From Bradyrhizobium sp. CCBAU 53338 (lineage in GTDB: Bacteria > Pseudomonadota > Alphaproteobacteria > Rhizobiales > Xanthobacteraceae), in the NCBI RefSeq assembly GCF_015291665.1, contig NZ_CP030048.1, positions 2,976,001 to 3,040,000 of the forward strand: a DNA stretch of 64,000 nt. Direction: 5' to 3'. Of this stretch, positions 24,185 through 26,919 are shown in pieces. The stretch's first letter is position 1, and every line of letters begins with the position of its first letter. The notes beneath the pieces were generated by a model. It had not been told where the DNA came from. It saw only the letters and a list, made by a program, of their open reading frames with translations, and made no database searches. Both the position numbers and the translations under genes were made by a program.

Positions 24185-24253
24185 CGCGATGTCTTGGTGT
24201 GCTCGGCGCATCACAGCGCGTGGCATGCGACGAAAAAAATTCGAACGACGCTC

Positions 24254-24282
24254 TTGCCAACGTTCCGCGCATACCTTATTAG
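24254..24282 (+). promoter_or_regulatory. Promoter of the tRNA-like/slipin leader
   Basis: A -35 TTGCCA (24254-24259) and a -10 TATTAG (24277-24282) are separated by 17 bp. This places transcription start near 24289, about 80 nt before the first tRNA-like structure and 570 nt before the slipin start codon. Seen by eye; not tested. Confidence 0.5.
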
Positions 24283-24310
24283 CGCGCTCCTTCGCTAGGC
24301 CATGGGTCCG

Positions 24311-24346
24311 GGCTCGTTGAGATCCCGGCTGGCGCGAGCCGGTCTC
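24311..24346 (+). other. Mutually exclusive hairpins in leader
   Basis: Hairpin 1 pairs GGCTCG (24311-24316) with CGAGCC (24335-24340). Hairpin 2 pairs GAGA-CCGGCT (24319-24322, 24325-24330) with AGCCGG-TCTC (24337-24346), with a TC bulge and a GGCGCG loop. The 3' arms overlap, so both cannot form at once. This is the geometry of a conformational switch, though chance pairing in GC-rich DNA is possible. Confidence 0.4.
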
Positions 24347-24370
24347 CGGTTTCGTGTTCCGCCGAATGAA

Positions 24371-24450
24371 GACGAAAGCAGGATGTAGCTCATGGAGAGC
24401 GTCGGGCTGAACACCCGAAGGCATCGGTTCGATTCCGGTCTCTTGTCCCA
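24371..24450 (+). ncRNA. tRNA-like structure A (degenerate, GAA anticodon)
   Basis: A cloverleaf can be drawn. Acceptor-like helix GACGAAAG (24371-24378) pairs with CTCTTGTC (24440-24447), 7 of 8 paired, followed directly by CCA (24448-24450). D arm is GCTC/GAGC with an ATGGA loop containing GG. Anticodon arm is TCGGG/CCCGA around a seven-base loop CTGAACA, reading GAA. A four-base variable region follows, then T arm ATCGG/CCGGT with loop TTCGATT. It is not an ordinary tRNA: nine bases separate the acceptor and D helices instead of two, the D loop is short, and position 37 is C. A tRNA mimic or decayed tRNA is likely. Confidence 0.7.
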
Positions 24451-24520
24451 CAAAGGATAGCTCAGTTGGGTAGAGCAGGTGACGTTGAAATCATCGTGTC
24501 GCGGGTTCGATTCCCGCTCC
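24451..24520 (+). ncRNA. tRNA-like structure B (degenerate, no acceptor stem)
   Basis: It starts at the base after the CCA of element A. D arm is GCTC/GAGC with the canonical loop AGTTGGGTA. Anticodon arm is GGTGA/TCATC with an eight-base loop CGTTGAAA that again contains GAA. Variable region is GTGTC, and the T arm GCGGG/CCCGC is perfect with loop TTCGATT. Only GGA (24455-24457) and TCC (24518-24520) can pair as an acceptor helix, and no CCA follows. The elbow elements (D-loop GG, T-loop TTCGA) are intact while the charging end is lost, which argues against a working tRNA and for a tRNA mimic or relic. Confidence 0.7.
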
Positions 24521-24564
24521 AAGCGCTCCGTTTCAGCCTGAACAGCTGATACCTCTGACGAGGA

Positions 24565-24592
24565 CCGGACGCGCGCTTCAGTCGCAGTCCGG
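24565..24592 (+). other. Hairpin downstream of the tRNA-like elements
   Basis: CCGGAC (24565-24570) pairs with GTCCGG (24587-24592), with additional GCG/CGC pairing inside, followed by CCGTTTTG. It could be a weak terminator, attenuator or processing signal between the tRNA-like RNAs and slipin. Confidence 0.35.
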
Positions 24593-24856
24593 CCGTTTTG
24601 CCGCAAGGCTTTCCGTCCGAACTTTGACACTGTGAGACCGGCTTCGTGCTGCGGTGGATACCGCTTGCGCTGATGCCGGGTGGCTCCGCACGGCCGCGCG
24701 ACAGATGTCGCGCGATCGCGCGCGTGCGCCCGTCATCGTGCAAGCTCAAGCCACGGCCCGCCGATCTCTGCAGGAAGCGTCGTCCGCGTCCTCAATTCCT
24801 TTGCAAACGAAAACTGCCGTCCGGCATCCCGCCGGGCGCAACGAAGGAGGCGTGCC

Positions 24857-26008
24857 ATGACCTGGCATTTGCTGATGTTGAACGTGACGGTGAAGGATGG
24901 CGAGCGCGCGTTGCTGACGCGCAACGGACAGCTCGTGCGCGTTCTCGCGCCCGGTCGGCATCGCCTGTTCGATCCCCTGCACGAGCTGAAGGCCGAAGTG
25001 CTCGATGTGGTCCGCACCGAGTTCTCCGCGGATCGCTACGCGGTGCTGAAGGCCGCGCGGCCCGATCTGGCCGCCGAGCTGTTCGAGGCCGTCGAGACCC
25101 GCGCCGACGAGGTCGCCATCGTCAGCCTCGACGGCCGGCCCGTGCATCTGATGACGCCCTGGCAGGTGCGCGTCTACTGGAAGGTCGCAACCCGCATCGA
25201 TGTCGAGCGCATCGATGTATCGAGCGATCCCCGCGTCAACGCGCGGCATCTGACCATGATCGAGCGTAACCGCTCGACCGTGACGTCAGAGACGGTGGTC
25301 GAGAACCACGAGGCGGGTCTGCTCTACGTCGAGGGCCGGCTCGTCGAGCGGCTCGCGCCCGGCCGGCACGCCTTCTGGACCGTCGGTCGCAAGATCGAGG
25401 TGAAGCGCCTCGATCTGCGGCCCCAGGCGGTCGAGGTCACCGCGCAGGAGATGCTGACCAAGGATCGCATCGCGCTGCGTGTGACGCTGACGGCGTTCCG
25501 CCGGGTCGTCGATCCCGAGCGCACGGTCGCGACCGTGCCCGACGTGGATGCGTGGCTCTACCGGTTGGTGCAATTCGCGATCCGCGAGGCGGTCGCTGGC
25601 CGGACGCTGGACGAGGTGCTGTCTGCGAAGGCTGCGCTGGATGCGGAGCTGCGCGACTATGTGCGTGCACGCGTCGCGGTATCTGGTGTCGAGGTCACCG
25701 AGCTCGGCGTCAAGGACGTGATCCTGCCCGGCGAAATCCGGGAACTGGTGAACAAGGTGGTGGAGGCGGAGCGGGTCGCGAAGGCGAACCTGATCCGCCG
25801 GCAGGAGGAGACCGCGGCGACGCGTTCTCTTCTGAACACCGCCCGGCTGATGGAGGAGAACCCCTTGCTGCTTCGGCTCAAGGAGCTGGAGTCGCTGGAG
25901 CGGCTGGTCGAGAAGGTCGGCCGCATCGATCTCCACGCCGGCAGCGGCGAGGGCCTCGATGCTCTCCTGACCCGGCTCGTGCGCCTGAAGGCGCCCGAGA
26001 GCGCATAA
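24857..26008 (+). CDS. Soluble slipin (SPFH/band-7) with duplicated N-terminal module
   Basis: A 383-residue SPFH protein of the slipin type. The band-7 core is seen in VEVTAQEMLTKDRIALRVTLTAFRRVVDP (in part), AIREAVAGRTLDEVLS, and SGVEVTELGVKDVILPGEIRELVNKVVEAERVAKA. A coiled-coil helical tail follows. Unlike stomatin-type slipins it has no N-terminal membrane hairpin. Instead the module ALLTRNGQLVRVLAPGRH (about residue 20) is repeated as LLYVEGRLVERLAPGRH (about residue 157). The start is fixed by AAGGAGG at 24844-24850; the frame is open upstream through noncoding leader. Some bacterial RNA-repair gene sets are reported to include slipins; a link with the tRNA-like leader here is inference. 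Confidence 0.85.
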   Translation: MTWHLLMLNVTVKDGERALLTRNGQLVRVLAPGRHRLFDPLHELKAEVLDVVRTEFSADRYAVLKAARPDLAAELFEAVETRADEVAIVSLDGRPVHLMTPWQVRVYWKVATRIDVERIDVSSDPRVNARHLTMIERNRSTVTSETVVENHEAGLLYVEGRLVERLAPGRHAFWTVGRKIEVKRLDLRPQAVEVTAQEMLTKDRIALRVTLTAFRRVVDPERTVATVPDVDAWLYRLVQFAIREAVAGRTLDEVLSAKAALDAELRDYVRARVAVSGVEVTELGVKDVILPGEIRELVNKVVEAERVAKANLIRRQEETAATRSLLNTARLMEENPLLLRLKELESLERLVEKVGRIDLHAGSGEGLDALLTRLVRLKAPESA

Positions 26009-26036: not shown

Positions 26037-26172
26037 CATCCATCCTCACAATTGTCGTCGTCTTGAACGCAGCTGCGCGCTGGCGCGACCCAAGATCATC
26101 AGACGCAACCGGATTGCGCACGCCATCGCCTGCGCCAATCTCGGCGCACAACCATGTCGGGCAGGGCAGGCG

Positions 26173-26919
26173 ATGTCTACTCTTGAGACCACCATCCGTC
26201 CGAAGGCCCAATCCGGCGAGTGGAAGGCGATCGTCATCCTGATCCTGCTCGTGCCCGTGCTGTGGTCGCCGCTGATCCTGTTTCGCTTCGTGCTGTTTCA
26301 ACCGTTCAATATTCCGTCCAGTTCGATGGCCCCGACGCTGGTCGTCGGTGACTACGTCTTCGCCGCCAAATTTGCCTATGGCTATGGCCGCTATTCGATT
26401 CCCTTCGCACCGTCGTTCATCTCCGGCCGTTTCCGTGCCGCCGATCCCGCCTATGGTGACATCGTCGTCTTCACGACGCCGAAGGACACCACGGTCGACT
26501 ATATCAAGCGCGTCGTCGGGCTTCCCGGCGACCGCATCCAGATGCGCCAGGGGCAGCTTGTCCTCAACGACATCCCGGTGGCGCGCGTCGCGCTGAAGGA
26601 GACGTTCGCCGGCTCCGCCTGCGGCGGCGAGGTCGGTGCCAAGGTCAAGCGCTGGCGCGAGACGCTGCCGAACGGAGTGAGCTACGTCACCTACGACTGC
26701 ATCGACGGCGGATTTCTCGACGACACGCCGGTCTACACCGTGCCCCCTGGCCACTTCTTCGCGCTCGGCGACAACAGGGACAACTCGACCGACAGCCGTA
26801 TGATGTCGGCGATGGGCTTCATCCCGATGGACAATCTCGTCGGCAAGGTGACGCGAATCTTCTGGTCGCTCGATTCCGAAGGCGAGCTCCGTGCGGAGCG
26901 GCTGGGGAAGGCGGGATGA
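26173..26919 (+). CDS. lepB: Type I signal peptidase
   Basis: A 248-residue inner-membrane serine protease that cuts signal peptides. One transmembrane helix (IVILILLVPVLWSPLILFRF) precedes the catalytic Ser51 in IPSSSMAPTL; the general base is Lys112 in DYIKRVVGLPGDRI; box E is ALGDNRDNSTDSR. The periplasmic part has an insertion with two cysteines (SACGG and YDC). The ATG at 26173 begins the usual N-terminus; the frame is open far upstream through noncoding DNA. Rhizobia often have more than one signal peptidase, so this may be an extra copy rather than the main one. Confidence 0.92.
   Translation: MSTLETTIRPKAQSGEWKAIVILILLVPVLWSPLILFRFVLFQPFNIPSSSMAPTLVVGDYVFAAKFAYGYGRYSIPFAPSFISGRFRAADPAYGDIVVFTTPKDTTVDYIKRVVGLPGDRIQMRQGQLVLNDIPVARVALKETFAGSACGGEVGAKVKRWRETLPNGVSYVTYDCIDGGFLDDTPVYTVPPGHFFALGDNRDNSTDSRMMSAMGFIPMDNLVGKVTRIFWSLDSEGELRAERLGKAG

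Follow-up and report, generated by a model that had tools for sequence, protein, structure and literature searches.

What are two tRNA-like structures doing, one directly after the other, ahead of a slipin gene? They could be tRNA genes, the remains of such genes, or parts of an RNA that works with the slipin or on its messenger. The question arose in the window, i.e., the whole stretch of 64,000 nucleotides of Bradyrhizobium DNA that was analysed, which belongs to a genome of 8.28 Mb (G000).

Two tRNA-like elements in a long leader

The initial annotation described two tandem tRNA-like structures in the leader of a slipin gene. Both are real: the Rfam tRNA model (cut-off 29) matches them on the forward strand, with 44.4 bits for mimic A (24379-24446) and 40.9 bits for mimic B (24455-24520), and the gene that follows encodes a Band_7 protein. 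ARAGORN calls mimic A only, as tRNA-Phe(GAA) at 24378-24450. The features recognized at the outset are also borne out: each element has a D arm, a five-pair anticodon stem and a T arm with the loop TTCGATT, mimic A ends in an encoded CCA, mimic B starts at the very next base, and the acceptor of mimic B is reduced in the window to three pairs (GGA/TCC). The two elements stand, but their extent had been drawn too narrowly; they belong to a larger feature, a leader composed of a 5' domain, mimic A, mimic B and a 3' region, in this order, followed by the slipin gene. The mimics (24378-24521) end 335 bases 5' of the slipin start codon. The features are as follows.

24253-24282, + strand: candidate sigma-70-family-like promoter; CTTGCCA 24253-24259, spacer of 17 nt, TATTAG 24277-24282
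24281-24856, + strand: entire leader, bounded by the rise in conservation and by the slipin start codon, ~575 nt; the RNA start may lie a few bases inward
24282-24376, + strand: 5' domain; outer stem, hairpin CCGGG/CCCGG, CTGGCGCG, second hairpin, CGTGTTCCG
24378-24450, + strand: tRNA mimic A; acceptor 24378-24384/24440-24446, D arm 24388-24400, T arm 24423-24439, CCA 24448-24450
24402-24406/24414-24418, + strand: anticodon stem of mimic A; 5 bp, loop CTGAACA
24451-24521, + strand: tRNA mimic B; stub acceptor GGA 24455-24457/TCC 24518-24520, D arm 24460-24476, T arm 24501-24517, no CCA
24478-24482/24491-24495, + strand: anticodon stem of mimic B; 5 bp, 8-nt loop in the window
24522-24856, + strand: 3' region of the leader; 335 nt, GATACCG at 24657-24663
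24857-26008, + strand: slipin/SPFH protein gene; 383 aa, Pfam Band_7 E 1.2e-31

Two reverse-strand open reading frames of 111 and 95 aa that cover the mimics (24295-24749) appear to arise simply as the antisense of tRNA-like sequence, and annotations may wrongly list them as genes. Elsewhere in the window, a tandem glycine riboswitch is found on the reverse strand (61366-61585; Rfam 62.4 and 37.1 bits), and the reading frame just downstream of it (59996-61297, reverse strand) appears by eye to encode a D-amino-acid dehydrogenase.

The leader travels with one slipin family

Within the genus, the leader is present in 10 of 35 congeners, the same 10 that encode a full slipin (identity at least 86%). 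None of the 35 congeners searched has the leader without slipin, a converse test that is valid inside the genus only; two of them (G003 and G010) carry slipin fragments, and the leader is absent. A second sample, referred to as the named loci, was found by slipin similarity: 100 loci encoded a relative and 80 were retained, 78 with alphaproteobacterial names and two labelled only "Proteobacteria"; most are from Bradyrhizobium and are not independent. One is cut off by a contig end, hence 79 are assessable. A T-arm motif with at least four of five pairs occurs at -650 to -250 of slipin in all 79, and in tandem in 72, versus 88 and 2, respectively, of 1941 control windows taken from the same 79 loci on the + strand only. 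The T arms counted sit at about -230 to -640 of slipin.

Two draws of genomes extend this picture. Slipin was found in seven of 385 genomes from the same class, G000 included, and five of the six new loci carry one or two mimics, in L142 recognized by eye only (two degenerate T arms; no Rfam tRNA match). The slipin match of L145 covers positions 65-370 of 371; L146, where the match is a partial SPFH one (residues 139-339), has no mimics. A draw of 398 Pseudomonadota genomes gave slipin in 23, G000 included, and thus 22 further loci. The T-arm motif, with all five pairs, is found in 21 of these and in tandem in 18, and the lone miss (L167) starts 113 bases from a contig end. Two gammaproteobacterial loci, L134 and L135, have a single plain T arm and no Rfam tRNA match. 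In L166, three tandem T arms (-372, -301 and -230 of slipin, ~71 nt apart) lie between RtcR and slipin, so that the T-arm copy number ranges from one to three. The leader thus travels with one slipin family across the phylum.

Boundaries and covariation of the leader

The edges of the leader come from an alignment of 11 genomes of the genus, in which the window counts as one row. Mean identity to the window base rises from 0.49 at 24260-24279 to 0.84 at 24280-24299, and agreement stays at 0.71-0.95 per 20-nt step as far as 24859. The CTTGC of the element at 24253-24282 is invariant across the same alignment, and CTTGCHA-N14-20-TATK precedes the 5' domain in 50 of the 54 Bradyrhizobium loci tested. 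We infer from this sequence pattern that the element is a promoter, from which a structured RNA of ~575 nt would probably be transcribed ahead of and together with slipin.

The 5' domain carries GTGTTCCG, and its CGTGTTCCG part, which includes GTGTTCC at 24354-24360, is nearly invariant. In an alignment of 28 sequences (A2; 27 of the 80 named loci, picked for diversity, and the window), 15 of the 22 predicted consensus pairs have changes on both sides. Folding of the first 250 leader bases yields no more favourable an energy than folding of shuffled sequence (z 0.21); for the leader of L104, z is -1.48. A 33-base pattern from the 5' domain occurs once in this genome. A model of the domain (R1) run over the 385 same-class genomes returned G000 and two other matches (E 5.5e-4 and 7.4e-4), which we take as chance level; as its initial screen scored no more than 11 candidates in any genome among the matches listed, this search says little on leader RNA without slipin outside the genus. 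Given that mimic-bearing slipin loci exist in the same class and R1 finds only G000, the 5' domain either evolves rapidly or escaped the initial screen. Two Maricaulis loci (L126 and L127) have an extra copy of the GTGTTCCG motif at -105 of slipin, near its start.

In the 3' region, GATACCG recurs at -420 to -100 of slipin in 75 of 79 named loci versus 87 of 2529 control windows; most of the 22 further loci lack it at the corresponding place. At its cut-offs, Rfam release 15 detects nothing of the leader beyond the two tRNA-like parts.

Each mimic keeps a different part of a tRNA

The acceptor of mimic A pairs GCAGGAT (24378-24384) with CTCTTGT (24440-24446) at six of seven positions, and a single additional base precedes the D stem. 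Among 70 parsed sequences, 68 have five to seven of the seven pairs, and the best register is the usual one in 19 and one base further in 50, ties (the window's included) being assigned to the nearer register. The initial annotation had placed seven extra bases between the acceptor and D helices of mimic A. In the window this pairing ties at six of seven, but 69 of the 70 sequences favour the usual register or the next, and the seven-base insertion is not supported. Covariation in mimic A was counted in 25 sequences (alignment A4; 24 named loci, picked for diversity, and the window), excluding the anticodon stem, because MAFFT misaligned it. The remaining helices are paired in 86.9% of cells, 11 of 16 pairs show double changes, and the covariation score is 0.400, versus 0.146 (sd 0.020) for shuffled and at most 0.185 for slid alignments. 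Left out of A4 are L097, L103, L105, L113, L126 and L127, in which mimic A has no plain T arm. In L097 and L103 it is cut, as judged by eye, to an acceptor stem closing a D-like hairpin, mimic B being intact; L105 is like these two in having a single T arm.

The anticodon loop of mimic A is less constant. With maximal pairing it has seven nucleotides in 14 of 71 parsed loci and otherwise mostly 2-6, most loops lying within 2-8 nt; stems were extended while pairing, so that some 5-nt loops are 7-nt loops with an extra closing pair, L096 is unparsed, and L119 and L130 (17-nt loop) are misparsed. In five relatives the arm ends in a tetraloop (GAAA in two, GAGA in two, GCAA in one). A CCA is encoded in mimic A at 32 of 72 loci. 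Mimic A thus keeps the acceptor and elbow, often with CCA, and its anticodon loop drifts.

Mimic B was assessed in 31 sequences (alignment A3; 30 named loci, picked for diversity, and the window). Its helices are paired in 90.8% of cells (anticodon stem 100%, T stem 98.1%), 12 of 19 pairs have double changes, and the score is 0.319 versus 0.102 (sd 0.010) shuffled and at most 0.078 slid; the stub acceptor shows compensatory changes of its own. A perfect 5-bp anticodon stem with a 7-nt loop is found in 68 of 78 parsed sequences, and 57 of these 68 have T33; the loop measures 6 or 8 nt in the window and nine others. The 68 loops contain 19 triplets, the most frequent being GTT (16) and TTT (10). 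The GAA noted earlier in both anticodon loops of the window is therefore rejected as a shared signal, given this range of triplets in mimic B and the loops of mostly 2-8 nt in mimic A. Only two of 72 loci have CCA after mimic B. In Burkholderia, the anticodon arm of mimic B appears by eye to be capped by GAAA.

Three loci are in neither A3 nor A4. In L124 and L125, the T arms are 116 nt apart at about -410 to -525 of slipin, and the D and T arms of the second mimic are separated by a long insertion. The second element of L130 (about -565 to -490 of slipin) resembles a complete tRNA-Met(CAT) with CCA; it may be a genuine tRNA or one that has recently taken the place of the mimic.

Mimic B keeps its anticodon stem but looks unable to be charged. 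Neither mimic looks like a working tRNA, and their losses are complementary, which suggests that the two ends of a tRNA serve as separate recognition signals. The view that these are tRNA mimics rather than products of decay, put forward from the window alone, stands, because the arms have compensatory changes, the leader is conserved up to the gene, and slipin nearly always adjoins it where this can be checked. Two outcomes had been named beforehand as marks of chance relics, namely absence of the elements upstream of slipin in related genomes and arms without compensatory changes; we find that the elements do precede slipin in relatives and that the arms do covary.

RNA-repair genes lie near the leader in many relatives

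Whole-genome searches of G000 gave no match to RtcB, RtcR, TROVE (PF05731)/Ro60 or RlaP. Among the ten leader-bearing congeners, RtcB lies within ~6 kb of slipin in five, on both sides in three. Of the 80 named loci, 14 have RtcB close to slipin and 66 show none inside the fetched flanks, some of which are short; the same loci gave no match to RtcR with the Citrobacter RtcR as query. The 22 further loci contain RtcB in 13 cases, which are 13 of the 14 loci from other classes (within 1.5 kb) and none of the eight from the same class. RtcR is encoded divergently upstream in six of the 14 other-class loci, with sigma-54-like boxes before the leader in five of the six. In Citrobacter, the locus consists of rtcR, a sigma-54-like box (by eye), a leader with GTGTTCCG and a T arm, slipin, and RlaP. 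In the E. coli PapRG-06-5 chromosome (L170), slipin precedes genes for a nucleotidyltransferase and a zeta-toxin-family protein next to lysC, and RtcR is not annotated beside slipin.

The P. aeruginosa SPFH gene PaFlo8 appears to be embedded in an rtc locus (PMC13086221). In Anabaena, a slipin gene, possibly of another family, is tabulated with rtcB among the genes that TrcR affects; TrcR is also a repressor of the trn tRNA operon (PMC10272220).

The mimics and slipin had been proposed as a possible separate system. The absence of matches to RtcB, RtcR, TROVE/Ro60 and RlaP from the whole genome agrees with this proposal; the pairing of mimics and slipin with RtcB and RtcR in relatives does not, and the locus is better seen, from these neighbourhoods, as an offshoot of RNA-repair loci. 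With neither RtcB nor RtcR here, and 66 of 80 named loci without RtcB in the fetched flanks, a present role in repair is unproven.

The slipin is a probably soluble SPFH protein

N-terminal to its SPFH domain, the slipin has two SPFH1-like units that match each other by profile; both lie in the first 140 residues (window 24857-25285). Pfam searches over 26 family members gave only Band_7 families below E 0.04, and the AlphaFold2 model has a mean pLDDT of 81.8 and a pTM of 0.58. The protein has no transmembrane-like stretch (top 19-residue hydropathy 1.09), and is probably soluble, as judged from its sequence. In five relatives the corresponding peak is 1.07-1.69; solubility may not hold family-wide, the value of 1.69 being that of the L118 slipin.

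A signal-peptidase-like reading frame, recognized by eye, lies 3' of slipin (~26170-26919, + strand). Relatives of a neighbouring Peptidase_S26 protein are found 1.2-2.1 kb past the slipin start in many close Bradyrhizobium loci, and upstream of slipin in L115.

What the leader may do

We favour, with moderate confidence, the explanation that the leader is a tRNA-mimicking RNA partner of an SPFH/Band-7 protein from RNA-repair systems, retained without RtcR and RtcB, for which it would act as a cofactor. The mimics would be cut out of the leader or held on it, and would present tRNA elbows to a slipin ring. The slipin may thereby gather tRNA-acting enzymes or damaged tRNAs, in analogy to the role of Y RNA for the Ro60 ring. 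Mimic A, with its acceptor, T arm and frequent CCA, would be the half read by end-processing enzymes, and mimic B, with its D, anticodon and T arms, the half read by anticodon nucleases.

The findings also fit processing of an mRNA leader, which makes a purely cis-acting regulator a serious rival, albeit one that we consider somewhat improbable. The mimics would then be sites for tRNA-processing enzymes (RNase P at 5' ends, RNase Z or E at 3' ends), whose cutting sets the stability or translation of the slipin mRNA, with no job in trans; slipin output would be a readout of the load on, or the damage to, the tRNA-processing machinery. The leader lies in cis in a fairly constant place (T arms ~-230 to -640 of slipin) and is conserved to the start codon within the genus, mimic A has its acceptor stem and, in 32 of 72 loci, an encoded CCA, and mimic B abuts it in the window, all of which agrees with such a role. 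However, RNase P alone needs neither the compensatory upkeep of the mimic B anticodon arm nor the conserved 5' and 3' parts of the leader.

An unlikely alternative is that mimic B is bait and alarm, i.e., a sacrificial anticodon arm whose triplets track the local nucleases and which, where RtcR is present, yields 5' fragments with a cyclic phosphate, which act on the CARF domain of RtcR and increase expression of the operon. The perfect stem and 7-nt loop (68 of 78 sequences), the T33 (57 of 68) and the 19 triplets would suit a bait, and RtcR adjoins the leader in six of 22 further loci. According to PMC7790460, tRNA 5' fragments with a terminal cyclic phosphate activate RtcR; the same source states that fragments of Salmonella YrlA were not detected, which speaks against this alternative. 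So do the lack of a match to RtcR in this genome and in the 80 named loci and the GAAA cap in Burkholderia, where mimic B offers no anticodon; moreover, the change of triplets may equal a plain lack of constraint.

A vault-like ribonucleoprotein is a more speculative proposal, which we regard as quite doubtful. Here a soluble SPFH cage with stacked SPFH1-like units, similar to a small major vault protein, would hold a co-encoded RNA with two half-functional mimics, A as a docking site for tRNA 3'-end or repair enzymes and B as an exchangeable anticodon bait with a triplet that drifts with the local nucleases. If this were true, then the particle would capture or count damaged tRNA even after loss of the ligase and RtcR. 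One vault match spans residues 8-333 of the slipin; prohibitin and stomatin match its SPFH part at higher Z than vault does, the N-terminal part alone matches SPFH1 of erlin and HflK, with no vault protein among the best 50 matches listed, and the slipin has no sequence match to the major vault protein. The SPFH1-like units are a possible link to the layout of that protein.

It is highly improbable that the elements are normal tRNA genes or genes in decay (a tRNA-Phe plus a pseudogene) placed upstream of slipin by accident: ARAGORN calls mimic A tRNA-Phe(GAA) and both Rfam scores exceed the tRNA cut-off, but the loop of mimic A has 2-6 nt in many relatives and GAAA, GAGA or GCAA in five, mimic B has a stub acceptor and is without CCA in 70 of 72 loci, the helices covary, and the association with a single gene family extends across the phylum.

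The locus offers an RNA of defined structure that is tied to one slipin family phylum-wide, in a genome without the usual repair enzymes. As the plant symbiont Bradyrhizobium is amenable to manipulation, the roles of the slipin and of the RNA by themselves can be addressed here. The locus also adds a well-supported structured RNA that Rfam release 15 reports only as two tRNA-like parts.

Comparison with known systems

Compared to tRNA-Phe(GAA), mimic A is alike in its acceptor, D, anticodon and T arms and in its CCA; it differs in the extra base before the D stem and in a loop and triplet that are not conserved in orthologues. In the accessible portion of the open-access literature, we found no RNA partner of a slipin and no tRNA-like RNA leading a slipin gene.

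In rsr-yrlBA-rtcBA operons, YrlA and YrlB are encoded beside Rsr (Ro60), ahead of RtcB, in an RtcR operon (PMC7790460, PMC9879122). These operons resemble our locus in that a tRNA-like RNA accompanies a presumed ring-forming protein. Rsr/Ro60 (TROVE) belongs to the Y RNA system and has no match in the window's genome, and in the Rfam consensus of YrlA the T-like arm precedes the D-like arm, whereas the mimics have the normal cloverleaf order. Membership in the Y RNAs was rejected (YrlA, RF02553, 25.2 bits versus a cut-off of 69; no TROVE match in the genome), and the link to Y RNAs that had been drawn for this locus is reduced to an analogy.

The closest system is an SPFH/Band-7 module. In 2016, Burroughs and Aravind reportedly paired SPFH/Band-7 scaffolds of RNA-repair systems with a "novel tRNA-like molecule" as their cognate RNA, and named them alongside Ro60 and Y RNA. 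Like our locus, that module, as reported, combines an SPFH protein and a tRNA-like RNA in an RNA-repair setting, and relatives of our locus sit in RtcR, RtcB or RlaP loci. Our locus differs in having two tandem mimics with complementary losses and a covarying 5' domain, in a genome without a match to RtcR, RtcB or RlaP. Most likely, it is an orphaned tandem variant of this kind, in which the RNA would be a cofactor of slipin or a bait for tRNA damage. If the 2016 module is as reported, then the kind is known, and the locus represents a tandem, complementary and orphaned variant of it with a covarying 5' domain.
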